This document shows, in pieces, positions 1,842 through 64,000 of a DNA stretch of 64,000 nucleotides. The first letter of the stretch is position 1. Every line of letters starts with the position of its first letter. Position numbers and translations under genes: made by a program. The DNA comes from a virus. Location of the stretch: the IMG/VR virus record IMGVR_UViG_3300031873_000003, positions 29,791-93,790 of that record. The stretch is one strand, 5' to 3'. The notes under the pieces are model-generated. The model ran no database searches and had not been told where the DNA came from. It saw nothing but the letters and a program-made list of their open reading frames with translations.

Positions 1842-3349
1842 ATGGCAGAAATGACATGGGAATTTAGTGCACCATCAGGCGTCAATGTAGGCGCCATTAA
1901 GGAGTGATTCTTAATGCAAACCCAGAATTTGCTGGAAACACCGAGAATCCAACACTACTTGCCAGAAGGCAGTGAAAACGTGCTTGGTGCGGTCAATCAG
2001 CAGGCAGAACAACCCTTAGCGAATGCTATGCCAACTCTTTACGAAGAGGTAGGTTGTTCGGCCCCAGAGACTTACAATGGGCATCTCTTACGAGAGATGG
2101 TGATAAAGTCCGGCCCTCCGGCGACGGAAGGGATGAGCCGCTACAAAAATTCCGCTATAAGTTCGAAGCTCCGTGAACAGTCGATTGCCGAGTCCAAGTT
2201 CATGGATTTCGTCAGGACGGAACCGGGTTTCGGAAAAAAGCGCGGAGAATCTATCACCATTACACGGGCTGATATTTTGACACAGCCTACCAGCGCCACC
2301 CTCTCCGAACACGATCGGATTCCTGTGGACGACTTTTCTCTGTCTACCACAGCTATCACAGTGTCGGAGTATGGCCGAGCAGTAACATTTACTCACATGA
2401 GTCAATTGCTTTCAAGGTTTGACCCACAAGACCCGATCCAGAAGGCTTTGCGGAAACAGATGACCAAGGCGCTGGACAGGCTTGCGGCAACAACCATGAA
2501 GACGACCTACCTTATTTACGCTCCAACCTCATTGACGGGTGGAACGTTCATGGAGGACGGGACGATTGACACGGCGGCCTTAGTGAACGTCAACATCGAT
2601 CACCTTGGGGCCATCAGGGATGCCTTTGCGGACACCTACGTCGTAGACCCCTACGAGGGAGACGACTACATTGGGCTGCTCTCAACAAAGGCCCTCAGAG
2701 GAATCAAGTCTGACGAAAATTTTGAGACTTGGAAACAGTATCTCCGGGAAGGAGACACCCTGCACAATTCCGAGGTCGGAAAGGTTGAGTCTATTCGGTG
2801 TATCGAGATCAAGGATACCAGTTGCCTTGCCAACAACAAGGGAACGGGATCTGTTCTTGGAGAAGGGATCATCTTCGGAGATGACTTCTGCGCCATGATC
2901 GAGGCAGAAACGCCAGAGGTTAGGGTACAGGTCAACTTCGGACAAGATCATGGTAGAGTGAACTCAGCAGCCTGGTACGGTGTTGAACCCAACTACTTGA
3001 ATTAATTGGGGAATGGCACCATTAAGGAGCGATCTTTAATGAAAAACCCTGAATTTGCTGGAATAACCGAGAATCCGACACTACTCGCCAATGGCAGTGA
3101 AAATGTGTTCGGTGCGGTCAATCAGCAGACAGGACGATCCTTAGCGTCTTCAAACGCTTTGCCAACTCTTACCGAAAGAGGTAGATCGTCCGGTTTCAGA
3201 GGCCACCAAGGGGCATCTCCACAAGGAGATGATGGTATGGTCCATCCCACCGGCGACGGATGGGGAGCCAATGCGTAGGCTTAGGTTTAGTTTGGCCGTT
3301 GACTGCCACGGCAGGAAAAGTCCGAGGGGCGTTCATAAGTTCCTCGTGA
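1842..3349 (+). CDS. Major capsid protein (N4-gp56-like), split by two group I introns
   Basis: Proposed exons are 1842-1882, 2141-2983 and 3274-3349, which join to 319 codons. Exon 1 starts at ATG 1842 after AAGGAGG and encodes MAEMTWEFSAPSG. Splicing then gives SAPSGVYKNSAISS, which reads like the usual N-terminus of this capsid family, followed by FMDFVRTEPGFGKKRGESIT. Exon 3 would end the protein with VVGLGLVWPLTATAGK and a short tail. A continuous reading frame from 1914 to 3005 also exists, but it begins inside intron 1 and stops inside intron 2, and its first ~70 residues are intron sequence. The family call comes from recognised sequence patterns (FGKK.GE.ITI; the NSAAWYGV region near the end). 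Exon 3 is less certain than exons 1 and 2. Confidence 0.75.
1883..2140 (+). ncRNA. Group I self-splicing intron 1 in the capsid gene
   Basis: About 258 nt, with no ORF of its own. Exon 1 ends GGCGT, which pairs with the internal guide GCGCC (1891-1895) and leaves a U:G pair at the 5' splice site. The next intron bases TGTAG (1886-1890) pair with the first exon 2 bases CTACA (2141-2145) as P10. The intron ends in G (2140). An R/S-like core is visible: CAGAGACTTACAATGGGC and GATAAAGTCC near 2070-2110, and AATCAGCAGGCAG near 1993 as a Q-like box. A GCGA-capped P9 hairpin lies near 2115-2132. Removing it restores a sensible capsid N-terminus. This is a prediction from pairing and is not experimentally shown. 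Confidence 0.8.
2984..3273 (+). ncRNA. Group I self-splicing intron 2 in the capsid gene
   Basis: This stretch is a diverged copy of intron 1 (shared blocks include ACCATTAAGGAG, GAATTTGCTGGAA, GGTGCGGTCAATCAGCAG and a GCGA-capped P9). Exon 2 would end GGTGT (2979-2983), which pairs with the internal guide GCACC (3016-3020) with a final U:G pair. S-like GGTATGGTCC lies near 3233-3243. The P1 loop is longer than in intron 1 and can form its own CCCAA/TTGGG stem. The 3' splice site is uncertain: after G3273 or after G3267. Either choice keeps exon 3 open to TGA 3347-3349. Confidence 0.7.
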
Positions 3350-3368
3350 TAATTGAGGAATTTTAAGA

Positions 3369-3482
3369 ATGATAGCGGCGGGAATCGCCGGTACTGCCAG
3401 TCGAGGCACTGTTAGTCGAGCCAGGGGGCGAAAACCCTCTGTCCTTGCCCGTGCCGTTGAAGCTGGAAGCCCCCGCCTTTAG
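3369..3482 (+). CDS. Small ORF of 37 aa, probably cut by a mini-element
   Basis: An ATG at 3369 follows GAGG by ten bases and opens a 37-codon, Arg- and Ala-rich reading frame. Its last residues (EAGSPRL) are encoded by the left hairpin of the downstream mini-element, so any original gene is probably truncated. I do not recognise it. It may equally be non-coding leader sequence between the capsid gene and the next gene. Confidence 0.25.
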   Translation: MIAAGIAGTASRGTVSRARGRKPSVLARAVEAGSPRL

Positions 3483-3598
3483 GCGTGGGGTAATTCACAT
3501 AGGGCAGGAACTGCCCAAATCAACGTTTGGGGAGAGGCGGTGTATCAATGCCCTTCAACGAACCAAGAAGCCCCGTCCGTAAGGGCGGGGTAGTTCAC
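3453..3598 (+). mobile_element. Mini-element A: IS200/IS605-type ends with a tnpB 3' tail
   Basis: Two GC-rich hairpins (3470-3490 and 3571-3590), each followed by TAATTCAC or TAGTTCAC, flank about 75 bp. That inner part reads RAGTAQINVWGEA, the C-terminal tail of TnpB-family proteins. The right end (GCCCCGTCCGTAAGGGCGGGG then TAGTTCAC, 3570-3598) is the usual TnpB right end, which also forms the 3' part of the guide RNA scaffold. No tnpA or tnpB body remains, so the element is non-autonomous, like palindrome-associated elements known from other genomes. If transcribed, its guide would be the bases just after 3598. Confidence 0.65.
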
Positions 3599-3604
3599 AC
3601 AATC

Positions 3605-3620
3605 TTACGCTAAGGCGTAA
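3605..3620 (+). promoter_or_regulatory. Leader hairpin TTACGC/GCGTAA before gene 3638
   Basis: A six-base-pair stem (TTACGC, loop TAAG, GCGTAA) sits just before the ribosome binding site of the next gene. The same motif, AATCTTACGC with a four-base loop, recurs before the gene at 26828. It could be an RNA processing or stability hairpin for abundant late transcripts. No U-tract of terminator type follows (only A residues). Confidence 0.35.
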
Positions 3621-4210: not shown

Positions 4211-5476
4211 ATGGGCAGTATCGTAGCAACAGACGTAACGATTACGGGGCACCTTAATCGCTTAGGCAGAAAGAAAATGTATGACGCAACCCTCACCTTT
4301 GGGGGTGGCGCACTTCAGTATCCTTATGGCGGGGTACCTCTTCCCCCGATAGGAAGATTCGGGATGCATTCTGCTCCTGAAATGGAAATTTCCCAGCCGG
4401 ACACATCAGGAATTATCTGGAAGTATGATCAGACAAACCACAAACTTAAGGCATATCATAGGGCGCCGGTGGTTGTGTTTGAAGAAGTGGTTACGTCGAC
4501 ACATGGAGTAACTTATTCAACCGGCACGACAAAATACCCTATGGCATGGCCTCTTTATGCCAGCAATGGGAACCAGGCTCTTGGGCTCTTGCCTGCCGGC
4601 CTCAATCCTGTGACCACAACGATTGCGATCAACATGTATTCGGCAACCCCGGGAACAAGAGCGTTGATCACATCGTTACATGCAACAGATCATTATGACA
4701 CCGTTACAATCAGTTACATCACTCAGGCATGGGCAGAAGTGTTTGAAAATCTGGTGGAAGCTGAGACCATGACTGCCGGTGCAACGACCACAAACGGGAT
4801 TACGCTTACTGCGGACGTGGGGACAACAGACCTCATTAGCTTTTTAACGCCTGGCCCATTTCTATGTGGCTTGATGGTCGGATTGAGCCGAGCTGGAACC
4901 GTAACCTGTCCAAAACCATTAGGTTTGTTACAGGTTGCTGCGGCAGGAGAATATGCACTTGACTTTACGGATGCAAACCCAGTTGCAACGACTATGGCAA
5001 GTCTCGCAAGCCAAGCATGGGATGCGGGAACGGCTATTATCAAATTTAACTACCTCAAAAAGCCCTCTTCAGGTTTTCTCTATGATAGGTTCGTAGAAGA
5101 AGAGGCCATTACGGCCAGTGGTCAGATAGCTACTCATGCGGCTGGGGGCGATGTTTTGCAGCCTCTCTTATGGGCAACCCCTGGGTTTATGCCTTCAGTG
5201 ACGGTTAGCACAACCTCCGCTACCTGGCCTATCGGTGGTACAGGCATGACAATAGGGACGACCGCACAATGGCAGCCAACAAATTTTTATCCGAAACAGA
5301 AATTAACGACGGCTGCAACATGGACTTCAGGGACAGGGGTCTTAGTAACCCTTGCAGTTAAACCCTCTTATATTTGGGGGATTCCAGAGGATATTGACGT
5401 TATCGTTCCCCTTGAGATGCCGCACGGAGTGAGATTGAAAAGTCGAAGTATCCGGGCACAGGTCTGGGGACAGTAA
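4211..5476 (+). CDS. Putative structural protein, 421 aa, beta-rich
   Basis: The start follows TGGAGGTGAAAT. The protein is rich in Thr, Ala, Gly and Pro and has repeated short beta-like segments with no transmembrane helix. It lies among head genes and is followed by a convincing terminator, so it is probably an abundant virion component. I do not recognise a named family; a head fiber, decoration or tail-sheath-like role cannot be separated from sequence alone. Confidence 0.6.
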   Translation: MGSIVATDVTITGHLNRLGRKKMYDATLTFGGGALQYPYGGVPLPPIGRFGMHSAPEMEISQPDTSGIIWKYDQTNHKLKAYHRAPVVVFEEVVTSTHGVTYSTGTTKYPMAWPLYASNGNQALGLLPAGLNPVTTTIAINMYSATPGTRALITSLHATDHYDTVTISYITQAWAEVFENLVEAETMTAGATTTNGITLTADVGTTDLISFLTPGPFLCGLMVGLSRAGTVTCPKPLGLLQVAAAGEYALDFTDANPVATTMASLASQAWDAGTAIIKFNYLKKPSSGFLYDRFVEEEAITASGQIATHAAGGDVLQPLLWATPGFMPSVTVSTTSATWPIGGTGMTIGTTAQWQPTNFYPKQKLTTAATWTSGTGVLVTLAVKPSYIWGIPEDIDVIVPLEMPHGVRLKSRSIRAQVWGQ

Positions 5477-6014: not shown

Positions 6015-6167
6015 GTGACCCAAACAGTTGCCGAAGGGACTACTGACCCCAACCCGGGGACAAGCAGCGTTACACATTGTCCGAAATGCGGAAATATCTT
6101 CATTATGGACGAAGATTTTGAGAATAAGTGTCCATTCTGCGGGTACTCGTTCGAGAATAAGGATTAG
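6015..6167 (+). CDS. Small zinc-ribbon protein, 50 aa (GTG start)
   Basis: A GTG at 6015 lies a few bases after AGGTGA and opens a 50-codon frame. Two CxxC pairs, CPKCGN and CPFCGY, are spaced as in a zinc ribbon, so the product probably binds one zinc ion. Such tiny ribbons are common in phage genomes, but the partner is unknown. An ATG at 6011 in another frame gives only 11 codons. Confidence 0.6.
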   Translation: MTQTVAEGTTDPNPGTSSVTHCPKCGNIFIMDEDFENKCPFCGYSFENKD

Positions 6168-6174
6168 GATTGAA

Positions 6175-6399
6175 GTGTCGCCGAACGCATTCCCCTGATT
6201 TTAATCGGGGGTAAGTGAGGCACTTGACAAATTCAGGTAGGGCAGGATATGCCCTAATTAACGCCTGTGGAGAGACTCACCTCTGCTTTTCGATTTCGTC
6301 GAAAAGTAAGTGGACTCAAAGAAGCAGGAACCGTACTTGGAGGTTGCTAATGAGCAACCAACAAGGATGCCCCCGAATTCATTCGGGGGAGGATGTCAC
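6175..6399 (+). mobile_element. Mini-element B: IS605-type ends with tnpB tail and guide-RNA-like scaffold
   Basis: A left hairpin (CCCCTGATTTTAATCGGGG, 6193-6211) and a right hairpin (GCCCCCGAATTCATTCGGGGG followed by AGGATGTCAC, 6369-6399) flank about 160 bp. The inner sequence reads GRAGYALINACGET, the C-terminal tail of TnpB, then EAGT-like remains. Further stems (CTTTTCGATTTCGTCGAAAAG near 6278; GGTTGCTAATGAGCAACC near 6342) look like the folded 3' guide-RNA scaffold of TnpB. No protein-coding tnpB remains. It sits in the gap before gene 6435. Confidence 0.7.
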
Positions 6400-6434
6400 G
6401 TGGGAGGAAACTTAACAGAGGTGGAGAAGGTGTA

Positions 6435-7121
6435 ATGTGTGAATTAATAGTGAAGGCGGTAGATGCAACTCATCCAGACCCTGAGAAGGATAGAAGAGGA
6501 TGCTATAAAAGGGGATACCCTGTCGCAGTCTATCCTGATGGAACTAAGTGGGGAGCCTGTGAGTGTTTACCCAGGTTTGTCATTATCAAATTTCCTGGAG
6601 TTCCTGTAGATAATCCAATAGTGCAGAAATATACGAAACCTCATATTGAACCTTGTCAACAGACAAGAAGTTGGAATATTATCGAGTGGAATAGAGCTGT
6701 AGCAAGGAGTAAGTATCGGGAATTTTTATCCAAGCCTGTGGTTCTATCTACAGTGGATGAACCTTTTGAGAAAATAATTACTTTGGATCAATGGCAGGAA
6801 ATGCAGGATGAAAACGATTATTATCCATTTTTTGTAATGCCAACCATTGAAATCCTTATAGGAGAAATAACAGGAATAAAGTTGTCTGGAACTGTTCGTT
6901 TAGTTGAGCTACAGGGAGATATTAATACAACCATTATAAGGAGGCTTTGGCAAATACGTTGGGCGTCTTTGCCTCTTGTAGCAAGAAATAAGTTGGCATC
7001 GTTGGGAGAGTTAGTGATAAAGGTTGGTTTATATGGTGGCACGTATGATTACACTTGGGCACAGGTGAAAGGTTATTTCAGGAACCAGCAGACCAATCTG
7101 GATGAGACCGAGGACTTATAA
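6435..7121 (+). CDS. Hypothetical protein, 228 aa
   Basis: I chose ATG 6435 (MCELIVKAVDA) because GGAGAAGG lies just upstream; a longer frame from 6393 would begin inside mini-element B. The N-terminal region has several Cys (MCEL, GCYK, GACEC) and aromatic residues. No family is recognised. The stop abuts the start of the next gene (TAA then ATG 7122), so the two are probably co-translated, which suggests a role linked to the Ser-Pro fiber protein. Confidence 0.65.
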   Translation: MCELIVKAVDATHPDPEKDRRGCYKRGYPVAVYPDGTKWGACECLPRFVIIKFPGVPVDNPIVQKYTKPHIEPCQQTRSWNIIEWNRAVARSKYREFLSKPVVLSTVDEPFEKIITLDQWQEMQDENDYYPFFVMPTIEILIGEITGIKLSGTVRLVELQGDINTTIIRRLWQIRWASLPLVARNKLASLGELVIKVGLYGGTYDYTWAQVKGYFRNQQTNLDETEDL

Positions 7122-10100
7122 ATGGCAACAGAAGTAACCCATATAGTTGACCCTGGAGAAGGTGCAGGACACGATTACCATTCCCTATCCTTATGGGAGG
7201 CTGGTGAAGTGGGCGACCTCACGGGCGTAAGGGATGAGATCGCTGTTGCCAAGTGCCGAGCTACAGATGGGGATGCGGATACGACTGCCGTAGTTCTTGA
7301 CGGTTGGATAACTTCCCCCACCCAGTATATCAAAATCTGGACTGATCCTGCGGAATCACATCGCCATGATGGGAAATGGAATACAAGTAAATATCGTCTA
7401 ACTGTTAGTGGTGCTTATACAATACAAAATAGTGAAAATTATACGAAAATAGATGGTATCCAATTTTCCGGGAATACGGGCGCCATATATAGGGGTTTGG
7501 CAATCGGTGCTCTTTCAAATTGTATATTAAATGGACTTAATACTAATAATCTTTCTGGTGTGTTACAAGAATCTGGAGGAGCGGTTACTTGTTGGAATGT
7601 TGTTGTTTTCAATTTGGGGACTGGTGCGAGTGGTTTTATTTCTTATACAAATGGTTCTAATTTTCGTAATTGTACTGCTTTTAATTGTGATAACGTAGGT
7701 ATCGAGAATGGTTATGCGGATGCTGTAGCAACAAATTGTGTGGCACTTACTTGTGGGTCTTGCTTTGATGGCGGTATTGTTGGAAATTATAATTGTTCCT
7801 CAGATACGACTGCTCCTGGGGCTAACTCTCTAAAAAGTAAGTCCGCAGCAAATAATTTTGTTGATATAGGTGCCGGAACAGAAGATTTGCATCTAAAACT
7901 TGGTGCAGATTGTATAGATACAGGAACTGATTTATCTGCTTATTTTACAACTGACATAGATGGTACGACCCGACCGACAGGAGCAAATACCTGGGACATC
8001 GGGGCGGATGAGTATGTAGCTGGTGCAGAATCCCTATCTCCATCTGCTAGTCCTAGTTTAAGTCCATCACCATCCTTATCTCCCAGTGCAAGTTTGTCTC
8101 CTTCCGAGTCGCCATCCCTATCCCCCAGTGCAAGCTTGTCTCCATCTGCCTCGCTTTCGTCTTCTCTTAGTCCTTCGACCTCACCGTCAAAAAGTCCATC
8201 TAAAAGTCCTTCGACCTCACCCTCCAGGAGTCCCTCCAAAAGTCCCTCCAGGAGTCCCAGCGCCAGCCCAAGCTTAAGTCCATCAGCGTCAGCGTCTCCG
8301 TCTTTATCACCATCTATTTCCCCAAGCATATCTCCTTCGGGATCTCCTTCGTTAAGTGCGAGTATAAGTCCAAGTGAGAGCCCGAGTTTGTCACCTTCGG
8401 CTTCGGTAAGCCCGTCTGTCAGTCCTTCAGTCAGTCCATCGGCATCTCCGTCAATGTCACCGAGTGTATCACCGTCGGCATCGCCTTCCGTATCGCCAAG
8501 CCTGAGTCCATCAGCTTCTATTAGCCCTTCGCTTAGTCCATCTGCGAGTCCCTCGGAGAGCCCAAGTGAATCACCGTCGTTGAGTCCTTCTGCTTCAGTT
8601 TCACCAAGCGAATTGCCATCTGTATCACCGAGTATTTCCCCTTCGGGATCACCAAGTGAAAGTCCAAGCCTGTCTCCAAGCGTAAGCCCATCGGAATCTT
8701 TTTCAGAAAGTCCCTCAGAGTCGCCATCCTTATTACCCTCGGCCTCTGTGAGTCCTTCTTTGTCCCCATCTGCAAGCGTGTCACCTTCCGAGTCACCATC
8801 GTTGAGTCCGAGCATCTCACCATCGGTATCTCCATCTGCATCCCCATCACTATCTCCATCAGCGAGTATAAGTCCGTCGGTATCTCCATCAGTTTCACCC
8901 AGCGAAAGTCCTTCATTAAGCCCATCGGCTTCCGTAAGTCCCTCGGTTTCACCTTCGTTATCACCTTCTATCAGTCCAAGCATTAGTCCAAGTCTATCAC
9001 CATCCGTTAGCCCAAGCAAAAGTCCTTCATTAAGCCCCAGCGCTTCACTATCTCCAAGTGTTTCACCAAGCGTCTCTCCATCAGTGAGTCCCAGTATTAG
9101 TCCTTCGGTAAGCCCCTCATTGTCTCCAAGTGCTTCGGTTTCACCGAGTATCAGTCCATCTCTATCGCCGAGCATAAGTCCGAGTGTTAGCCCAAGTGTT
9201 TCACCCAGTATATCACCGTCAATAAGCCCATCTGAATCACCATCGTTTTCTCCGTCAGTTTCGCCATCTGTATCGCCAAGCGTAAGTCCTTCAATCAGTC
9301 CAAGTTTATCACCGTCCCTGAGCCCATCAGTTTCACCATCGGTAAGTCCATCAATCAGTCCATCGGCGTCACCGTCCATGAGTCCGTCTTTAAGCCCCAG
9401 TGCTTCTGTCTCTCCATCAATGTCTCCCTCGGCTTCTCCGAGTTTATCTCCTTCTATTTCGCCATCGGTATCGCCAAGCGTAAGTCCTTCAATCAGTCCA
9501 TCGGTTAGCCCGTCTGTAAGTCCGAGCATTAGTCCATCATTAAGTCCCAGTTTAAGTCCTTCAAAGAGTCCAAGTTTAAGTCCCAGTGCATCATTAAGTC
9601 CCAGTTTAAGTCCGTCTTTATCACCTTCCGAGAGCCCTTCACTTTTACCATCGGCTTCGCTCTCCCCGAGCTTGTCACCGAGCGCCAGCCCAAGCGTATC
9701 ACCATCGGAATCTCCGAGCTTATCGCCCTCGGCTTCGGTAAGTCCTTCCATAAGCCCGAGTTTGTCGGCTTCTGAATCTCCCTCGGTATCCCCAAGCTTT
9801 AGTCCGAGTGAATCACCATCCCTGAGTCCATCCGTTAGTCTTTCAATCTCTCCGTCGATCAGCCCCTCGGTTAGTCCGAGCAAATCACCTTCGGTTTCAC
9901 CCTCTGAGAGTCCGAGTTTAAGTCCTTCCATTAGTCCATCTCTCAGCCCTTCAGCGAGCGTTTCACCATCGATTAGTCCATCCCTCTCCTTAAGTGAGTC
10001 ACCATCGGTAAGCTATAGCCTATCGCCCAGCGCAAGTCCGTCCCTTAGCCCATCGATCTCACCCTCGGAGAGTGCAAGCTTAAGTCCAAGTATCAGTCCT

Positions 10101-16782: not shown

Positions 16783-17339
16783 AAGCAACAGACATACCTG
16801 GATGGATGGACGAAAAAGAGATTGAGTGGCTCGCAGAACAGGCCAAGCACCACAATCTTATCGTTGAAATCGGAACGTGGCTTGGAAGGTCTGCCTATGC
16901 GATGGGAGAAGTAACGCCAGGAAAAATTATCACTATTGATAGTTTTAAGATGGAGGGTGTTCCTCCGAAAAGGTGGCCAACGGCAATAGAGGCACACAAG
17001 GAAATGGAAACCGATCCGGATTGGATTTATCGCCGTTGCCTGGATAACCTTGATGAACTTATAACAAGCGGAAAGGTAGAGGTTATTCGGGGAGATAGCC
17101 TTAAGGTTATCAAGGATTTGGATGGTATAAAAGGTCAGGTGGACATGGTATTTATTGATGGAAGTCATGATTATGTTTCTGTTCAAGAGGATATCTATAA
17201 ATATCGGCCTTTACTAAAAAAGGGTGGGTTACTGTGCGGGCACGACTTGGCTCACCAGGTAAAAAAGGCGGTTAGTCGCTTAGTTCCTGACTATAAGTTA
17301 GTTGCAGGAACTTTGATCTGGGCAGCAATAGAGAGTTAA
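16779..17339 (+). CDS. SAM-dependent methyltransferase (class I), 186 aa
   Basis: A TTG at 16779 overlaps the upstream stop as TTGA. Motif I is NLIVEIGTWLGRSAYAM; an acidic residue follows at ITIDSF; then VDMVFIDGSHDY and KKGGLLCGHD fit the Methyltransf_24 type. The target is not known, but these enzymes often methylate sugars or small molecules in surface-glycan clusters, which suits this island. Confidence 0.75.
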   Translation: MKATDIPGWMDEKEIEWLAEQAKHHNLIVEIGTWLGRSAYAMGEVTPGKIITIDSFKMEGVPPKRWPTAIEAHKEMETDPDWIYRRCLDNLDELITSGKVEVIRGDSLKVIKDLDGIKGQVDMVFIDGSHDYVSVQEDIYKYRPLLKKGGLLCGHDLAHQVKKAVSRLVPDYKLVAGTLIWAAIES

Positions 17340-17936: not shown

Positions 17937-18662
17937 GTGATACTTGATATTTTAAGTGGCATGGTTAAACGGACGGACGTTGGGCTAACGGCGGCAGTGG
18001 CTATTTCAGGTGGAATAGATAGCGCCGTGATTCTTCATCATGTGGTGCATGACCTTATGGATGGGGATGGCTCTAAGGTTCATACGTTCACCGCTGTGTT
18101 TAAGAACAGTTCAGACGAAAGAGAGAAGGCCAAGAGGGTTGCTGAGTTTTATCATACTAACCATACAGAGGTTTTAATATCAAGAGAGCGTATGGCCTCA
18201 ATGTTTCCGGTAGCCCTTCAACATTATCCATTTCCAAGATTTAATATATGGCCGTGGATAGTAGTTGAGGCAGTGAAAGAAAATGGACTTGGATGTTTAT
18301 TTATTGCAGAAGGGGCAGACGAACTTTTTGGGTACTCCGATCGTTCATTTCTTGAGGGATGGGCGGGTCAATTGATATGGGTATGGCCTGCATGGGAGGA
18401 ACCATGCCGACACTATGACGTTAAGCTATTCGCACCCTTTATGGCTATACAGGACAGCCGGTTGCCAGTCATAGAGTTTTATAAACCACCTAACAAGGAA
18501 TTGTTAAGGCGGGAATATCAAGGAATACTTCCAGGATTTATTATAGCACAATCTTCTACTTCTCCGGCATTAGGATTCTATAAGATGATGGGGATGACCA
18601 GGGAACAGCTTCAGTTGGAAGCCTCAAAAGTATGGCATGAAGTACATATTAGAGCTAACTAA
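17937..18662 (+). CDS. Asparagine-synthetase-like ATP pyrophosphatase, 241 aa
   Basis: A GTG start one base after the previous stop. The PP-loop AISGGIDSAVI binds ATP, and FIAEGADELFGYSDR is the second hallmark of the asparagine synthetase C-terminal domain. The N-terminal glutaminase domain of full AsnB is missing, so ammonia must come from another source or partner. In glycan clusters such enzymes amidate uronic acids. That would fit here but is inference. Confidence 0.75.
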   Translation: MILDILSGMVKRTDVGLTAAVAISGGIDSAVILHHVVHDLMDGDGSKVHTFTAVFKNSSDEREKAKRVAEFYHTNHTEVLISRERMASMFPVALQHYPFPRFNIWPWIVVEAVKENGLGCLFIAEGADELFGYSDRSFLEGWAGQLIWVWPAWEEPCRHYDVKLFAPFMAIQDSRLPVIEFYKPPNKELLRREYQGILPGFIIAQSSTSPALGFYKMMGMTREQLQLEASKVWHEVHIRAN

Positions 18663-56192: not shown

Positions 56193-56432
56193 CTACACAA
56201 TAAAATCTTTTGGCATTTTGCCGTGCCAAAAAATATCACCGTTCCAACTGTTTTTAACAAAATTAAGCACATCATCGGTGAGTATAGTCAAGGTGCCACA
56301 GTTCGCTCCCGGTGGATCGAAAACGTCGAATTTTACATGTCTCGGATTCCAGTCGATGCAGTGTATTTTATAAATTTTTGGCGAAGAAAACCCCTGAGTC
56401 TTTAGCTCAGGGGATGAATTCGTTTCATACAT
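56193..56432 (-). CDS. Truncated gene restarted by the IscB element, 79 aa
   Basis: ATG 56432 and its site GGAGGTTTTT lie inside the last codons of iscB. The frame runs through the element's right-end hairpin (residues NSSPELKTQGFSSP) and into native sequence from about KIYKIHCIDWNP. The native part looks like a real small phage gene that lost its own start when the element inserted. It might be the second half of the gene cut at 57846. Function unknown. Confidence 0.5.
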   Translation of the reverse strand: MYETNSSPELKTQGFSSPKIYKIHCIDWNPRHVKFDVFDPPGANCGTLTILTDDVLNFVKNSWNGDIFWHGKMPKDFIV

Positions 56433-57780
56433 AAAAACCTCCGTAATTATAAAACCTATCTATGTTTTCTATTCTGACAGTTCTGTTCTTTCCCTGATAA
56501 TCATTATAAGCAACTCTTGTTCCTAAATTCTGACATCCTTTAGAAACGAATGGTTGACCATCTATATAAATCAAATCCTTATTTTGAACCTTGTATTTTT
56601 GTTTTCTTATGGAAGGCTTAAAACCTATCCTGTTTAACTGTAAGGCTCTATTATTTCTTCTTTTTTGTGTCCACCTTACTTCTTTACATCTTTCTTGAAC
56701 TGTTCCGTTACCTATTACAAAAGCATCATTAGTATGAGATTTTTCAAGGTTTAGTTCGTTTCTTTTTACTTTAGTTTCATATCCATAAGTTACTGCTGTT
56801 GGATACAATTCCTGTGTTCTTCGGACTACTTCTTTCCTGATTATATTCATCATTGTTGCATCTTTGTATTGCTTATTTTTTGTCAAAAGATGATGCAAGT
56901 TCTTTTTATGTAGTCTTTCATGACATTTCTCATGTAAAAGAGCTAAATTATCAGGTTTATCAGTTCCTTTAGGTTTTGGAATTATATGATGCAATCTAAA
57001 ACCATTACCTTTACTTGATTCCTTGCCGCATAGCTGGCATTTTCCATGTTCTCTTGTTGTCACATAAGCCTTTACATTTTCATAACCATAAAGAATTCCT
57101 TGTTGATATTCTTTTCCCGATATTTCCGGATTTAAAATTTTCTGAATATCAAACTTTCCCGATTCCACACAAACTCTTGATACAGGAACATATTTAGAAA
57201 TCTTATCAAGAATCCCTATATGAGAATCAATCTTATGCTGTACTGATGGAGCAAATATGAATCCTTTTCTGTTGTCGAATCTTGGTTCTCTGTACCATAA
57301 TCTGTTTCTTCTATTTCTTCGATACATAGCTCTTTCTTCAATCTTGTCACTTACATCGGTTCTTAATTTTACTTCAATTCTTACTATTTCTCTCTTTTCC
57401 GTTCTTACTGATACACCTGCATATTCGTAGCCTGTATCTAAACTAAAAATAATCTCTTGTGTCTTTTCTTCACAGCTAAAATTAAGCTGGATAACAAACG
57501 GAAATCTTTTAATTACTGTAGCCTTACCCGATTTTACCATACGTTTGCTCTTAGCATAAGAACAAGGCATCAAAGGTTTACCTTCCTTTGAAAGGACAAG
57601 TACAAGTGCTTGTATTGAGCGTCCTACTTGTTGGACTTGATTCTCTTCGGGATTGATTAATACTGGCTGTATGCTCTTATCACTAAGAATTTCTTCTTTG
57701 TTTAGACAAGAACTCTCAGAGCAGAGAACTAGAGAAGTATTCTCTGGTGAATTCTTTAGCCTTATATTAATCTTCTGCAT
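56425..57780 (-). CDS. iscB: IscB RNA-guided nuclease, 451 aa as read
   Basis: The PLMP domain begins near residue 57 (VLVLSKEGKPLMPCSYAKSK). Then come RuvC-I FSLDTGYEYAGVSV (Asp), an Arg-rich bridge helix (YRRNRRNRLWYREPRF), RuvC-II RVCVESGKFD (Glu), the HNH domain (CQLCGKES, LHHIIPKPKGTDKPDNLALL) and RuvC-III KSHTNDAFVIG. All expected catalytic residues look present. The first ~55 residues are not usual for IscB and lie over the probable omega RNA, so the real start may be later, perhaps a non-ATG codon. IscB is the ancestor-like relative of Cas9. Confidence 0.9.
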   Translation of the reverse strand: MQKINIRLKNSPENTSLVLCSESSCLNKEEILSDKSIQPVLINPEENQVQQVGRSIQALVLVLSKEGKPLMPCSYAKSKRMVKSGKATVIKRFPFVIQLNFSCEEKTQEIIFSLDTGYEYAGVSVRTEKREIVRIEVKLRTDVSDKIEERAMYRRNRRNRLWYREPRFDNRKGFIFAPSVQHKIDSHIGILDKISKYVPVSRVCVESGKFDIQKILNPEISGKEYQQGILYGYENVKAYVTTREHGKCQLCGKESSKGNGFRLHHIIPKPKGTDKPDNLALLHEKCHERLHKKNLHHLLTKNKQYKDATMMNIIRKEVVRRTQELYPTAVTYGYETKVKRNELNLEKSHTNDAFVIGNGTVQERCKEVRWTQKRRNNRALQLNRIGFKPSIRKQKYKVQNKDLIYIDGQPFVSKGCQNLGTRVAYNDYQGKNRTVRIENIDRFYNYGGFYV

Positions 57781-57865
57781 AGTTTCCTAAGCTCCCTAAT
57801 CAACTCTTTTCATCGTTGTACGTCACCGTACAAGCCCCTTGGTCTTTAGCCAAGGGGTAGTTGAC
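57610..57865 (-). ncRNA. Predicted IscB omega RNA
   Basis: In known IscB systems the guide RNA is encoded just upstream of iscB, with the guide first and the scaffold after it. Here the left-end hairpin at 57828-57865, a TGTACG/CGTACA stem with GTGA loop (57820-57835) and a TCTCTGCTC/GAGAG-like stem (near 57705-57725) precede or overlap the iscB frame. The guide would be phage sequence just right of 57865. Limits are approximate; known biology plus visible stems. Confidence 0.5.
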
Positions 57866-59680: not shown

Positions 59681-59683
59681 TTG

Positions 59684-59923
59684 TTATACAGCACGGGAAA
59701 TAACGGCAGATGAAGTCAGATGATGCCTCATCCGTGCCCCCAAAATCCTATCAGCATATTTTTCCAGCGTGCGACTATGCTGTTGACACGCCACATGGTT
59801 AAAATCTTTTCCGTCGGTGTGGATACGAAAATAACAGCGGCGAGACTTACAGAAAAGACATTGGTTATTAAAACGTATAACAACCGCATCGACCCGATGC
59901 GGAATAGACTTTTGCTTTTTCAT
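59684..59923 (-). CDS. Small cassette protein, 79 aa
   Basis: ATG 59923 has its own strong site (AAGGAGGTAAT). It is in frame with the upstream gene, so two products may arise from one frame. The protein is basic, with three Cys (CLFCKSRRC) and His, perhaps zinc-binding. The stop lies in a GTTATAC core at 59683-59689. Confidence 0.5.
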   Translation of the reverse strand: MKKQKSIPHRVDAVVIRFNNQCLFCKSRRCYFRIHTDGKDFNHVACQQHSRTLEKYADRILGARMRHHLTSSAVISRAV

Positions 59924-60196
59924 ATTACCTCCTTGCCCGCACAGGTCATGCGGAATGTTGGCGGTATCGGTGAACGGCCTGTCCACGCTCGGCCGTTGCG
60001 GTTGCAGCGGGTGGTTGAACGTCAGCACGCTCCACCACATCCGCCCGGTCAGCAGGACGCGCAGCCGTTCTCGCCACGTCAGCGCCCAGCAGGAAATCAC
60101 CATGCCGTCTTCCGTCTTGTGGACCGGCAGGGGCAGGTATTCCGGCTGGTCCTTCGCGTACACGCAGTTCTGTTCTGGGAACTCAATCGGTTTCAT
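59684..60196 (-). CDS. Cassette gene, 170 aa frame: known-type N-terminal part fused to a second gene
   Basis: ATG 60196 follows GGAGGTTGAAG. The first ~75 residues (MKPIEFPEQN, YLPLPVHKTEDG, SVLTFNHPLQPQ) resemble a small protein often seen in phages and cassettes, usually ending soon after QPQ.PSVD.PF. Here the frame stays open and runs into the separate gene that starts at 59923. Base composition here is clearly more GC-rich than in neighbours, a sign of transfer. Function unknown. Confidence 0.5.
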   Translation of the reverse strand: MKPIEFPEQNCVYAKDQPEYLPLPVHKTEDGMVISCWALTWRERLRVLLTGRMWWSVLTFNHPLQPQRPSVDRPFTDTANIPHDLCGQGGNMKKQKSIPHRVDAVVIRFNNQCLFCKSRRCYFRIHTDGKDFNHVACQQHSRTLEKYADRILGARMRHHLTSSAVISRAV

Positions 60197-60241
60197 TCTT
60201 CAACCTCCGTTGTTCTGTTTTCAACCCCGGTTGATGGCACC

Positions 60242-60301
60242 CGCCAACAACCGAATGCAGGCTACTCCGCTTCGCTCCGAGCCTGATTCGGAGCGTTATA
60301 C
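60242..60301 (+). other. attC site 1
   Basis: Left arm CCGAATGCAGGCT pairs with right arm AGCCTGATTCGG with one extra base in the left arm; the end core is GTTATAC (60295-60301). The first core (near CGCCAAC) is degenerate. Confidence 0.65.
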
Positions 60302-60559
60302 GGAAACATTAATTGGCGTTATCGCCAGCCCAACGTGGTTTTGCTGTAACCCCGAAAAGTCAGACATAACGTAGTTGATCCGATATTCGGGTATTGGAGA
60401 AGTTATTTTGTAGGCATCGTAGTCCCCATCCTCTATGGGAAGAAATCTAATTGTATCGCCTACTTGGAAATCACGGTCGTTTTTCCGGATCTCAAAGGTT
60501 TTCCCCCCTTCGAGAATGTGGCATAAATAACATTGTTTTATTTTTAGTTGATGCAGCAT
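60296..60559 (-). CDS. DUF3850/ASCH-like protein, 87 aa
   Basis: ATG 60559 follows TTGGAGGTACAT; a longer frame to 60682 runs through attC 2 and is not used. The pattern HQLKIKQCYLCHILEGGKTF then EIRKNDRDFQVGDTIRFLPI matches DUF3850, a PUA/ASCH-like fold thought to bind RNA or modified bases. It is common in phage genomes. The stop falls in the attC 1 core. Confidence 0.75.
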   Translation of the reverse strand: MLHQLKIKQCYLCHILEGGKTFEIRKNDRDFQVGDTIRFLPIEDGDYDAYKITSPIPEYRINYVMSDFSGLQQNHVGLAITPINVSV

Positions 60560-60586
60560 ATGTACCTCCAATATAATTAAGAAAAT

Positions 60587-60641
60587 GGATAACAAGTCAC
60601 TCCAGCGGACGGTCAAGGCGCCGCTGACCTCTACGTTATCT
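60587..60641 (+). other. attC site 2
   Basis: Cores GGATAAC and GTTATCT; left arm ACTCCAGCGGACG and right arm CGCCGCTGACCT pair with an extra A in the left arm. Confidence 0.85.
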
Positions 60642-60833
60642 CCATACAATTCCAGTTCCACAACAGGTTCGACATGTTTCAAATTCTATTGTTGAGCTTG
60701 CCCATTGACCGGTAACTTGGGAATAAAACCCTTGTGACACTAATCCATTGCCCGAACATATCGGACAACGATGAGGCATTTCAGAAATAACCACCGGCTG
60801 CACTTGAGCCGGAATAGCTCTTTTAGATTTCAT
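60636..60833 (-). CDS. Small zinc-ribbon protein, 65 aa
   Basis: ATG 60833 follows AAGGAGAAAAC. CPICSGNGLV and CRTCCGTGIVW give two CxxC knuckles of DnaJ type (CxxCxGxG), so one zinc ion is likely. The stop codon is the TTA of the attC 2 core. Confidence 0.65.
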   Translation of the reverse strand: MKSKRAIPAQVQPVVISEMPHRCPICSGNGLVSQGFYSQVTGQWASSTIEFETCRTCCGTGIVWR

Positions 60834-60930
60834 GTTTTCTCCTTGTCCGGCAACGGTGTCGTATCACCAGCTATACAGATGTTTAGTATTGCTATACGGA
60901 TGAAATAGGTTCGGTGGAATCACATACGGC

Positions 60931-61128
60931 CTATTTCTGGTCATGTTCAGTTATCGGCCACCGGTACGGCCCATGAGTGATCGTAGCCCCGAGAATCCCC
61001 TTCTTGTGACCGAGCTTCGCCGTTTTCCACACCGGACCGCTTGGAGTTTGCACAATAGAGGAGACAGTGCATCTCTTGTGACGGTTTCTTGCCTCTCGCT
61101 CACGTTTCCCGGCTCGGTTTGCACTCAT
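60931..61128 (-). CDS. Small basic hypothetical protein, 65 aa
   Basis: ATG 61128 follows TGAGGTAACCCGCT. Very basic N-terminus (NRAGKREREARNRHKRC), so nucleic-acid binding is possible. It shares one cassette with the zinc-ribbon gene downstream; the gap 60834-60930 has two TATACAG-like repeats and no attC site. Confidence 0.5.
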   Translation of the reverse strand: MSANRAGKREREARNRHKRCTVSSIVQTPSGPVWKTAKLGHKKGILGATITHGPYRWPITEHDQK

Positions 61129-61170
61129 GTTTTAGCGGGTTACCTCATATACCTACTAATGACCAATTCC

Positions 61171-61227
61171 GTATAACAAGTCATTCGACCGGATGCCCAA
61201 AAGCGCCGGTCAATTCAATCGTTCTTT
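61171..61227 (+). other. attC site 3
   Basis: First core GTATAAC, end core GTTCTTT. Left arm TTCGACCGGATGC pairs with right arm GCGCCGGTCAATT, with an extra base on the left. Confidence 0.75.
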
Positions 61228-61361
61228 TACGGTGGTCGGATGCTATCCCGACTGAGTGCTGCCGATTCTACGGCTCGTTTGCTCATCAGCAATAGTTATT
61301 CGGTTGAGCTTGCCCGAAAGGACTATGCGTGTCTGCTTTCCACGCCGCACCGTAAAAGAAC
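61222..61361 (+). other. Cassette with no convincing gene, ends inverted
   Basis: About 140 bp between attC 3 and attC 4, bounded by GTTCTTTTACGGTG (61221-61234) and its exact inverted copy CACCGTAAAAGAAC (61348-61361). Only a 19-codon frame without a ribosome site lies inside. It may carry a promoter, a small RNA or nothing. Confidence 0.6.
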
Positions 61362-61410
61362 AAATCACTAGAGCCGAACTGTAACCAGTCGGCTCACTTC
61401 TGCGTTATCC
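61355..61410 (+). other. attC site 4
   Basis: Cores AAAGAAC and GTTATCC. Left arm CACTAGAGCCGAAC pairs with right arm GTCGGCTCACTTC, one extra base on the left. Confidence 0.8.
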
Positions 61411-61611
61411 TGCGCCCAATATGGCCTTTACTTTCGGCCCCCATTTCTGCATTACATCAAAACACTCAGACCCGAATGTGTGCGGGTCCTCTCCGTATAG
61501 CCTCAACGCCATAACCATAGCATCGGCTTCAAGTTCTCGAACATCAGAAACAAGATAAAATTCCTCTTCGACATTACTGCTCCCCGGCAACTTACGAATA
61601 TGAACATCCAT
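61405..61611 (-). CDS. Cassette-encoded hypothetical protein, 68 aa
   Basis: ATG 61611 follows GAGGAGGAGTGAA. Acidic, mixed alpha/beta (EEFYLVSDVRELEADAMVMA). No family is recognised. The stop is the TTA of the attC 4 core and the start is 23 bases from attC 5, so the gene fills its cassette. Confidence 0.6.
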   Translation of the reverse strand: MDVHIRKLPGSSNVEEEFYLVSDVRELEADAMVMALRLYGEDPHTFGSECFDVMQKWGPKVKAILGAG

Positions 61612-61634
61612 TTCACTCCTCCTCATAATGATGC

Positions 61635-61690
61635 GGATAACCGTTCACTCCAGCGGACGCCCAGGAGCGCCGCTGACCTCTGCGTTAGAC
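61635..61690 (+). other. attC site 5
   Basis: Cores GGATAAC and GTTAGAC. Left arm ACTCCAGCGGACG and right arm CGCCGCTGACCT, as in attC 2; extra A on the left. The first core matches the attC 4 end core. Confidence 0.9.
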
Positions 61691-62182
61691 GGTTTTCAAT
61701 ATAAGAGTGCATTCACCATGATACCATTTGCTAAAATGAAACGTTCCTACGGAAAACCCGAACGGGAACCCCACAATACTTCCAGATCCGTAGACCACCA
61801 AACCCCTTATCCCTCCATAATCGTTTATCATTTTCATAATTTTCTGTCGTTGAAATACCTTATTTGTCGGAAGGATGTAAGCTATCTCCGTAGCCAACTC
61901 GAAATTATGTTGCAACCAAAGCTCAAAACAAGAATAAGGAGGGTTTCCGATAATCCAATCAACTTTTTTATCGTAGTCAAAGAAGTTTCTACCAGCTTCA
62001 ATTTCGCACCAATCGGAGCCTTCAGGCAGGTGTCGATAAAATGCCCCATCGCCTCGACAAGGATCAAGGCAAAGACCGGATGGCTGTAACCATTGAATGA
62101 TCTCCTGTGCAACATTGTCTGGTGTGTAAACAATGTCTTTCTCAAGCGGTGGTCTCTCTATGAGTTCTAATTGATGAATCAT
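61685..62182 (-). CDS. Adenine-specific DNA methyltransferase-like protein, 165 aa
   Basis: CLDPCRGDGAFYRHL is the SAM-binding motif and IIGNPPYSCF the catalytic NPPY motif of N6-adenine methyltransferases. The protein is small for the class, with the target recognition part reduced. It may protect phage DNA from restriction. No clear ribosome site precedes ATG 62182, which lies 11 bases from attC 6. The stop is within the attC 5 core. Confidence 0.8.
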   Translation of the reverse strand: MIHQLELIERPPLEKDIVYTPDNVAQEIIQWLQPSGLCLDPCRGDGAFYRHLPEGSDWCEIEAGRNFFDYDKKVDWIIGNPPYSCFELWLQHNFELATEIAYILPTNKVFQRQKIMKMINDYGGIRGLVVYGSGSIVGFPFGFSVGTFHFSKWYHGECTLILKTV

Positions 62183-62192
62183 AAAAAATAGC

Positions 62193-62256
62193 GTCTAACA
62201 AGGCGCTCCACCGGATTGCCAATAAACCTGGCAACCGGTGAGCTTAGTCGTTATGC
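62193..62256 (+). other. attC site 6
   Basis: Cores GTCTAAC and GTTATGC. Left arm CTCCACCGGATTGCC pairs with GGCAACCGGTGAGC, an extra A on the left; the longest site of the array. Confidence 0.9.
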
Positions 62257-62490
62257 GACTTCAATTGGCTCTGGGACTGGAAATGCTACAAATTTCGATG
62301 AAATCCCATGTCCACAAACTACTTCATATACTCTTGTTTCACCCTTCATTTTTGTCAGTGAACTGCAAACAATCAAGGTTCCTTCTCCTCCTTCTACTCC
62401 TTGAATACGCCATGGAACTATATATTCTTTTCCATTACAATCACAACCCGTTTTCTTACAAATACTGCATCGTGTTATTCGCTCTCTCAT
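62251..62490 (-). CDS. Cys-rich cassette protein, 79 aa
   Basis: ATG 62490 follows TTGGAGGTGAAAG. The N-terminus RCSICKKTGCDCNGKEY may bind zinc; VYEVVCGHGISS follows in a second half. Not recognised. The stop is in the attC 6 core. Confidence 0.6.
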   Translation of the reverse strand: MRERITRCSICKKTGCDCNGKEYIVPWRIQGVEGGEGTLIVCSSLTKMKGETRVYEVVCGHGISSKFVAFPVPEPIEVA

Positions 62491-62520
62491 CTTTCACCTC
62501 CAATTATAAATTAGAAAATC

Positions 62521-62577
62521 GCATAACAAATCATTCGACCGGACGCTCAAGGGCGCCGGTCAACTTAGTCGTTATGC
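62521..62577 (+). other. attC site 7
   Basis: Cores GCATAAC and GTTATGC. Starts TAACAAATCATTCGACC, very like the classic attC consensus; arms pair with one extra A on the left. Confidence 0.9.
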
Positions 62578-62748
62578 TTCTTCCCAAACCACCCTACCGT
62601 CAAAACTACCGTCTTTGTGTAATCTGATCACAGTTACGGAAACCCCGATATCCATATCATCACAGAAAACATCTATGACTTGGCCAATCTTTAGGTTCTC
62701 TGGCATCCCTTTATCTACCAATTCACATAAAAACATCTCGCTAATCAT
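62572..62748 (-). CDS. Small cassette protein, 58 aa
   Basis: ATG 62748 opens 58 codons after TTAAGGATTTTGTT (weak site). The frame (LKIGQVIDVFCDDMDIGVSV, then VIRLHKDGSFDG) fills its cassette and ends in the attC 7 core. Beta-rich; not recognised. Confidence 0.55.
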   Translation of the reverse strand: MISEMFLCELVDKGMPENLKIGQVIDVFCDDMDIGVSVTVIRLHKDGSFDGRVVWEEA

Positions 62749-62768
62749 AACAAAATCCTTAATTTACA

Positions 62769-62823
62769 GCATAACCAATCACTCCAGCGGACGGTCAAGG
62801 CGCCGCTTAGTTTTACGTTATAC
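62769..62823 (+). other. attC site 8
   Basis: Cores GCATAAC and GTTATAC. Left arm CCAGCGGACG pairs with CGCCGCTTAG, an extra A on the left. The first core matches the attC 7 end core. Confidence 0.85.
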
Positions 62824-63135
62824 CCCAACAAAATCCTCACACGTGTCAGCCCTATCAAAAACTTTTCGATGTGCTAGTTTTAGTTTTTCCCAGAAAGTTT
62901 TCCTACCAAATTCGTTTTTTTCCTGGGCTGTTACAAATTCTTGAGGATAGATAGAAAAAATATGCTCTCCCCCTTTTTCCAATATCCAATGTCCCATAGG
63001 ATTCCCAGACTGATCAACCCCTGGATTACACCGGATAGTGTTTTTGGAAATATTCACCTTGCAATGTAAACAATCCTTACATGATTTGAACCTCCCCACG
63101 GCTAAAGCCGGGGGATTCCTGTTAATTAAGGACAT
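62818..63135 (-). CDS. Cassette gene restarted by a TnpB right end, 105 aa
   Basis: ATG 63135 and its site AAGGAGGTCAGCA lie inside the 3' end of a tnpB relic. The frame crosses the right-end hairpin (NRNPPALAVGRF) and continues into what looks like a native gene with Cys pairs (CKDCLHCKV) and an ordinary C-terminus. The stop is in the attC 8 core. The native start has been lost. Function unknown. Confidence 0.55.
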   Translation of the reverse strand: MSLINRNPPALAVGRFKSCKDCLHCKVNISKNTIRCNPGVDQSGNPMGHWILEKGGEHIFSIYPQEFVTAQEKNEFGRKTFWEKLKLAHRKVFDRADTCEDFVGV

Positions 63136-63290
63136 TGCTGACCTCCTTGTGGCTCGTTCCAAGCCCGAAATTAAGAATTACTTGGGCAGCATTAATGTCT
63201 CTGTCCAAGATGGAGCCACACTCCTTACATTCCCAATTTCGTACCTTAAGCCCACTCAATCCTGTAGGTCCAGTTAAGTTACTTGTTCTC
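63085..63290 (-). pseudogene. tnpB: tnpB 3' fragment with right end
   Basis: The frame ending at TAA 63122 reads SGLKVRNWECKECGSILDRD then INAAQVIL, the second half of the TnpB zinc ribbon and the last RuvC motif. The right-end hairpin CCCCCGGCTTTAGCCGTGGGG and GAGGTTCAA follow at 63085-63118. The first Cys pair and everything before it are missing; an HNH gene abuts at ~63290. Confidence 0.8.
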
Positions 63291-63824
63291 ATTGTTTCCT
63301 GCTAAAGCATGGACCATGCCGTCTATCAGTGCTTGTAATTCGCACAATGTAGCGGTTCCCTTCATGCGATTAGCACGATGGCTGAGAACCCATACATTGC
63401 CTTTTACATACCCCTTTGTAGGGATTATCCTGTCCAAAGACGGACTGTTCGGGGAAGGTTTATTTTTTCCTACAATAAGAGGCAAACGAAGAACGGGGCA
63501 CATTGTGGGAATAACTATGTCCGAAACAGACAAGTCAAAGGGCAAGTGCAATTCTCTTGCTCTGCGTCTTGCATGTTTCCACAATCCATATTCTGGCGTT
63601 CCACACTTGCCGTGTAAAGTAACTCTCGTTTTGAATTTCTCGTGACTCATACAGCCACAACTCAGAGTTGCCTTTCTGCGTAGGTTGCCGCCAGAAGTCC
63701 TAGTTTCTTTTCCACAATCGCAACGACACCGCCAACGAGCTTGACCATCGGACAAATTCATATCACGGGCTAAGACGACAAGACGCCCAAACCGCTGACC
63801 CGTCAAATCTTTCAGACTACTCAT
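63279..63824 (-). CDS. HNH homing endonuclease inside tnpB, 181 aa
   Basis: I use ATG 63824 (MSSLKDLTGQRFGRLVVLA); a longer frame to 63851 starts in tnpB. The pattern CRCDCGKET, LSCGCMSHE (zinc) and SLDRIIPTKGYVKGNVWVLS with SHRANRMK is that of a common phage HNH class. A GGAGGAAAAACGC site lies upstream. It takes the place of the middle of tnpB. Confidence 0.85.
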   Translation of the reverse strand: MSSLKDLTGQRFGRLVVLARDMNLSDGQARWRCRCDCGKETRTSGGNLRRKATLSCGCMSHEKFKTRVTLHGKCGTPEYGLWKHARRRARELHLPFDLSVSDIVIPTMCPVLRLPLIVGKNKPSPNSPSLDRIIPTKGYVKGNVWVLSHRANRMKGTATLCELQALIDGMVHALAGNNENK

Positions 63825-63828
63825 ATTG

Positions 63829-63966
63829 CGTTTTTCCTCCGTCCCTAGCATTGAGTTCGATTTTCCTCAAGCCCCAGTTGTAGATAGATGCCAAGTGGAC
63901 AAGCCAACGAGACAGGTCAACTTCTTGTCCCTTGGTCAGCTTGAGTTTGAGGGTTCGGACGATCAC
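63829..63966 (-). pseudogene. tnpB: tnpB 5' fragment
   Basis: From a GTG near 63966 the frame reads MIVRTLKLKLTKGQEVDLSR, then HLASIYNWGLRKIELNARDG, which is the start of TnpB. It is stopped by TAG just where the HNH gene starts. The two tnpB pieces are in the same orientation and belong to one former gene that has lost about its middle 250 codons. Confidence 0.75.
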
Positions 63967-64000
63967 TTCTTTCGTCTCTTCTCGTTGAGTTGCTTCATCC

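Follow-up and report, generated by a model that had tools for sequence, protein, structure and literature searches.

Gene cassettes antiparallel to their attC sites in a tailed-phage array and in other viral arrays

Arrays of attC sites without intI (CALINs) are known from virulent and other phages (Qi et al. 2023, PMC9892861). Two attC sites of phage PH101 were recombined by IntI1, the bottom strand better than the top, and the arrays of TJE1 and PH101 were classed as typical bacterial-like arrays (PMC9892861). In chromosomal integrons the attC bottom strand lies mostly on the leading-strand template, and lagging-strand exposure raises attC folding (PMC8946536). By the depositors' gene annotation, the arrays of PH101 and ctTUS972 are reversed, with genes running antiparallel to attC, and that of TJE1 is forward. 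The text of PMC9892861 does not mention the reversal in PH101 and ctTUS972, and in the open-licence literature we found no paper naming reversed phage cassettes or such a rule; a report elsewhere is possible. Phage P12002L gave no covariance model match, and queries of INPHARED returned a P1 isolate and record AB571791 only (class-1-like attC) and nothing meaningful (phage-type attC).

The attC array and its genes

The window, i.e. the whole 64,000-nt stretch analyzed here, covers the last 64 kb of a 93,790-bp IMG/VR record (G000). The record has genes for head proteins and a Terminase_2 small subunit on a backbone common to other viral contigs. Positions 1-149 and 93642-93790 of the record (window 63852-64000) differ at a single base, even though end repeats are not listed for the record. 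Because of this match the genome is probably near complete; it may be complete or nearly so, or circularly permuted, or its two termini may each belong to a copy of the same TnpB gene. An intI gene was also sought outside the window, and the PF00589 and TIGR02249 profiles detected no integron integrase in the entire 93.8-kb record. The locus therefore differs from a complete integron (intI, attI and Pc promoter) in lacking intI, and corresponds to a CALIN (two or more attC sites without an integron integrase in the vicinity), with seven sites detected by covariance model.

Rfam yielded no attC family match, so we built our own covariance model (R1) from ten attC sites, none of them from the phage under study. 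These came from class 1 integrons (aadA1, aadA2, qacL and aadA5), whose polarity was set by annotated intI and genes, from Arenimonas, Nitrospirae, Lysobacterales and other loci, and from one viral contig. Applied with filters off to 56-64 kb of the window, R1 found seven attC sites, all on the plus strand, scoring 26.0-55.1 bits (E values 6.6e-14 to 1.5e-5), and the top minus-strand score in the array region was 11.7 bits. A 24-base attC pattern had six matches versus 0.01 expected, the pattern itself having been derived from these sites.

Of 70 positions compared between the R' core of each site and the R'' core of the following one (R'(n) with R''(n+1)), 64 were complementary, against a mean of 49.7 in permutations (p = 1.2e-4); for pairing within sites the figure was 48 of 70, the random level. 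This cassette-wise pairing added two sites (s0 and s1) and a doubtful one (s3), extending the array to s0-s9, and it marks mobile units that moved as circles. Its use as proof of polarity was considered and rejected, since the pairing is symmetric and serves for mobility alone; the polarity of the array therefore rests on the covariance model and on sequence homology. Like integron attC sites, those found here have R''/R' cores, L''/L' arms with an extrahelical base, and a covariance model match on one strand, and like gene cassettes the units are bounded by attC and have their own complementary R' and R'' ends. The sequence-only reading had counted eight attC sites pointing rightward. The polarity was borne out by the scan, which yielded neither minus-strand sites nor a lack of attC score, and the count changed slightly, to seven by covariance model plus two and a doubtful tenth by core pairing. 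The sites are as follows.

59683-59689, plus strand: first core, GTTATAC, at the end of the array that is downstream in transcription; complementary to the s0 R'' at 7/7 positions
59875-59963, plus strand: attC s0, 89 nt with a long loop; cassette-wise cores 7/7 and hairpin; missed by the covariance model
60242-60301, plus strand: attC s1, 60 nt; cassette-wise cores 7/7 and hairpin; covariance model match not significant
60587-60641, plus strand: attC s2; 42.3 bits
60848-60956, plus strand: doubtful attC s3, 109 nt; core GTTATCG and hairpin only; cores 4/7
61171-61227, plus strand: attC s4; 41.6 bits
61355-61410, plus strand: attC s5; 26.0 bits; cores GTTCTTT/AAAGAAC, 7/7
61635-61690, plus strand: attC s6; 36.9 bits
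62193-62256, plus strand: attC s7; 37.0 bits
62521-62577, plus strand: attC s8; 55.1 bits (minus strand 11.7)
62769-62823, plus strand: attC s9; 33.9 bits

In a canonical cassette array the genes run parallel to attC; all clear genes of this array were antiparallel to it. They lay on the minus strand, had no room for a promoter, and were usually provided with an RBS. Read in gene sense, a cassette consists of the attC site (reverse complement), a spacer of about 15-35 nt (typically about 22 nt) that mostly contains an RBS, the ORF, and a TAA stop, which is the complement of the core TTA and often lies inside the boundary core.

59684-59923, minus strand: cassette gene, 79 aa; RBS and ATG inside the s0 loop; TAA stop in the first core
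60296-60559, minus strand: cassette gene, 87 aa, DUF3850 (PF12961, E value 1.3e-18); stop in core
60636-60833, minus strand: cassette gene, 65 aa, with CxxC motifs; strong RBS; stop in core
61405-61626, minus strand: cassette gene, 73 aa; stop in core
61685-62182, minus strand: cassette gene, 165 aa, DNA adenine methyltransferase-like (NPPY); stop in core
62251-62490, minus strand: cassette gene, 79 aa; RBS; stop in core
62572-62748, minus strand: cassette gene, 58 aa; stop in core
62818-63162, minus strand: flanking gene, transcriptionally upstream; its stop lies on the last core, and an IS200/IS605-like element interrupts its 5' end

The earlier claim that the genes point left and stop within the cores stood for the clear genes and needs correction for three cassettes: 61222-61404 has no convincing gene, the content of 60951-61221 is ambiguous, and in 59958-60295 the reading frame lacks a stop and continues into the next cassette. 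The methyltransferase-like product of 61685-62182 matched PADLOC MTase_II (6.5e-8) and, weakly, N6_Mtase; its DNA was similar to a methyltransferase of Shewanella phage 1/40, and the cassette had no relatives in IMG/VR. A search of plasmid DNA returned no matches.

Other elements lie close to the array. An IS200/IS605 TnpB-like gene (window 63122-63966, minus strand) disrupts the gene at the upstream edge; a 190-aa gene (63279-63851), which looks like a homing endonuclease and has no Pfam match, takes the place of the central part of the TnpB-like gene. An IscB-like HNH protein of 451 aa (window 56425-57865, minus strand) adjoins a HEARO RNA (RF02033, 108 bits).

A second array is located outside the window, with these sites (record coordinates).

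16951-17009, minus strand: attC site
17210-17268, minus strand: weak attC site
18590-18647, minus strand: attC site

With filters off, two of these scored 35.7 and 22.5 bits; the weak third scored 9.2 bits but had cassette-wise cores of 7/7. The cassette genes lie on the plus strand; their products are a 64-aa protein, an N6_N4 methyltransferase (PF01555, 4.9e-23) and a truncated Mom. The terminase small-subunit gene lies downstream. The two arrays are therefore on opposite strands of one record, each antiparallel to its own genes, and the sign of the GC skew flips between the two regions. Since the second array is reversed within a rightward operon, polarity tracks transcription and not a fixed direction of the genome. 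In an empty-site comparison, the backbone relatives G028-G032 had no attC sites and the array flanks were not conserved among relatives.

Locus L002, which holds the second array, has further features. Within the array, at 2285-3607, a LAGLIDADG-like ORF (2333-2785, minus strand) splits a duplicated methyltransferase start from the full N6_N4 methyltransferase gene. An 890-aa ORF at 6056-8728 with LAGLIDADG_3 and Hom_end matches is 73-81% identical to ORFs that related phages have beside the terminase small subunit, and is probably an intein-bearing TerL. Ahead of the terminase, at 4700-5180, a motif GAAACCCA...GCGAGCGA is repeated in several plus-strand genes and looks like a coding repeat.

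Cassette orientation in viral and bacterial arrays

Viral contigs were gathered by attC pattern alone, blind to genes, and then scanned with the covariance model. A site was called forward or reverse from the RBS-led ORF (50 aa or longer) that abutted it, ORFs being defined by simple rules. With three attC patterns as seeds, mostly of proteobacterial type and representing few attC families, 126 viral sites were reverse, 16 forward and 31 undecided (42 contigs reverse, 5 forward), versus 4 reverse and 76 forward among bacterial sites including class 1 integrons (0 and 38 contigs). The difference was significant for sites (p = 6e-38) and for contigs (p = 5e-19). Within this bacterial set, the class of Smithella, whose integron attC sites are the closest to those of the window phage, was represented by 29 loci with 41 sites, which gave 35 forward, 6 undecided and none reverse. 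A test free of any coding model, requiring an RBS-led ORF to fill at least 60% of the cassette, gave 62 reverse to 12 forward in viruses (about 5 each by shuffling) and 4 to 18 in bacteria (about 2). A codon-score gene caller was dropped for its false-reverse bias on bacterial arrays (21 reverse to 26 forward).

The start codon lay 10-34 nt from R'', typically about 22 nt, in 59 of 84 reversed cassettes, and in 37 of 40 cases the gene upstream of the array ran in the same direction as the cassette genes. A reverse ORF ended exactly on the core stop at 66 of 154 viral sites, a share of about 40% that is little above the one third that might result from frame alone, versus 10 of 74 bacterial sites. 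Phage genes were found in the reversed loci, and 29 of 30 viral records contained no IntI above the cut-off. The single IntI-bearing record (L094/L095) had mostly forward cassettes, and L094 had more of them than any other viral record.

Four contigs with reversed arrays (L136-L139, from the Propionivibrio and Pseudomonadota MAGs G008 and G009) were considered as bacterial exceptions and rejected as phages or prophages; their gene products include tail, tape-measure, endolysin and primase proteins, and among the cassettes of their long reversed attC arrays are those for Mom and N6_N4 methyltransferase. The rule is not without exceptions: TJE1 is forward, as are a few isolated sites. We consider it nearly certain that the reversed layout is real and general.

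Possible causes of the antiparallel layout

We read the array, with a probability of roughly 0.7, as a CALIN in a tailed phage whose phage-typical cassettes lie antiparallel to attC, are handled by host IntI in trans and are expressed as the tail of an operon. The combination of host IntI in trans with operon expression is in itself probable. A phage without an integrase of its own must use that of another, most simply the host's, and the similarity to Smithella attC sites suggests the link to an IntI. Cassettes would be inserted or exchanged by the host integron integrase during infection and transcribed from phage promoters at the end of a co-directional phage operon, where only genes antiparallel to attC would be expressed. 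The arrays look like operon tails because of the co-directional upstream genes (37 of 40) and the starts some 22 nt from R''. The cargo (DNA methyltransferases, Mom and small proteins) would act mainly in anti-restriction and host take-over. Of the two ideas in the sequence-only reading, selection for expression from the phage's leftward operon agrees with the data as to operon expression and not as to direction, the rightward operon being reversed as well; a distinct type of cassette fits, and the reversal holds across phages.

Two causes of the polarity itself may be proposed. With the antiparallel layout, the bottom strand of attC, the recombinogenic one, would coincide with the coding strand, which may be exposed by transcription and, for genes co-directional with the fork, as the lagging-strand template. 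Insertion between G and TTA, antisense of a TAA-C stop, would spare the preceding gene, and docking behind stop codons is suggested by the core stops. We would give less than even odds to either cause. It is also conceivable, at less than even odds, that phages maintain an inverted cassette pool of their own, separated by polarity from the bacterial one, in which the exposed strand lets host IntI shuffle anti-defence genes. If so, inverted cassettes would be silent behind a bacterial Pc, and bacterial cassettes silent in phage arrays.

Pure expression selection is a comparably tentative alternative, in which arrays are seeded either way and only antiparallel ones survive; its equally tentative premise is that the G-TTA junction behind stop codons is the sole harmless docking point in packed operons. 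Many terminal sites do abut the stops of larger genes (243 aa in L006, 229 aa in L077, 794 aa in L101), and both the core stops (66 of 154 sites) and the co-directional upstream genes (37:3) agree with it, but exact stop overlap occurs in well below all cases and forward cassettes could dock in intergenic GTT sites just as well. Somewhat less likely is an inherited polarity, by which one ancestral reversed cassette pool was exchanged among phages and newcomers had to match the transcription of the array. Several phages do have related attC types, and an array seeded by one site sets the orientation of later insertions; the reversal is nevertheless seen in distinct attC families (Smithella-like, TTCCACCGGACGG type and TTCAAGCCGACGC type) and on either strand of a single record. 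A chimeric or misclassified contig containing part of a host chromosomal integron is very improbable: the L094/L095 record, with IntI and mostly forward cassettes, is of exactly this kind, but here opposite-strand arrays occur in a record with terminase, head and phage-shared backbone genes and without IntI, and bacterial arrays are forward. Least probable of all are terminator-like structures at gene ends in place of attC, since, although every hairpin sits between a stop codon and the following RBS, terminators would need neither covariance model E values down to 6.6e-14, nor R''/L'' sequence in common with bacterial sites, nor cassette-wise core pairing (p = 1e-4).

The direction of cassette genes relative to attC has been treated as near-constant, and the consistent inversion in phages departs from it. 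Phage arrays may be a separately adapted form and not merely stolen pieces of bacterial integrons, with a polarity shaped by expression and strand exposure rather than by chance, and phages may be able to reshuffle anti-restriction genes by means of host integrases. A contig of phage origin can be recognized from orientation alone, as happened with the four MAG-binned contigs, and what sets cassette polarity becomes a directly testable question.

Comparison with known systems

In T4-type phages, PeSL mobile regulatory cassettes are gene-end stem-loop units tied to the shuffling of phage genes; they are not known to have attC features or an integron integrase. Sedentary chromosomal integrons (Vibrio, Xanthomonadales, the class of Smithella) resemble the window array in attC sequence and structure, in cassette-wise complementary cores, and in promoterless genes with an RBS, but their genes are parallel to attC and IntI and attI stand at one end. 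The described phage CALINs share attC arrays without intI and DNA methyltransferase cargo (PMC9892861); their attC sites were competent for IntI1 in an assay. In the window array the genes are antiparallel to attC. Single reversed or promoter-bearing cassettes of the Vibrio superintegron, for example toxin-antitoxin cassettes, are likewise transcribed against Pc (PMC11014356). Those, however, are a minority with promoters of their own, whereas the arrays described here are wholly reversed and promoterless.
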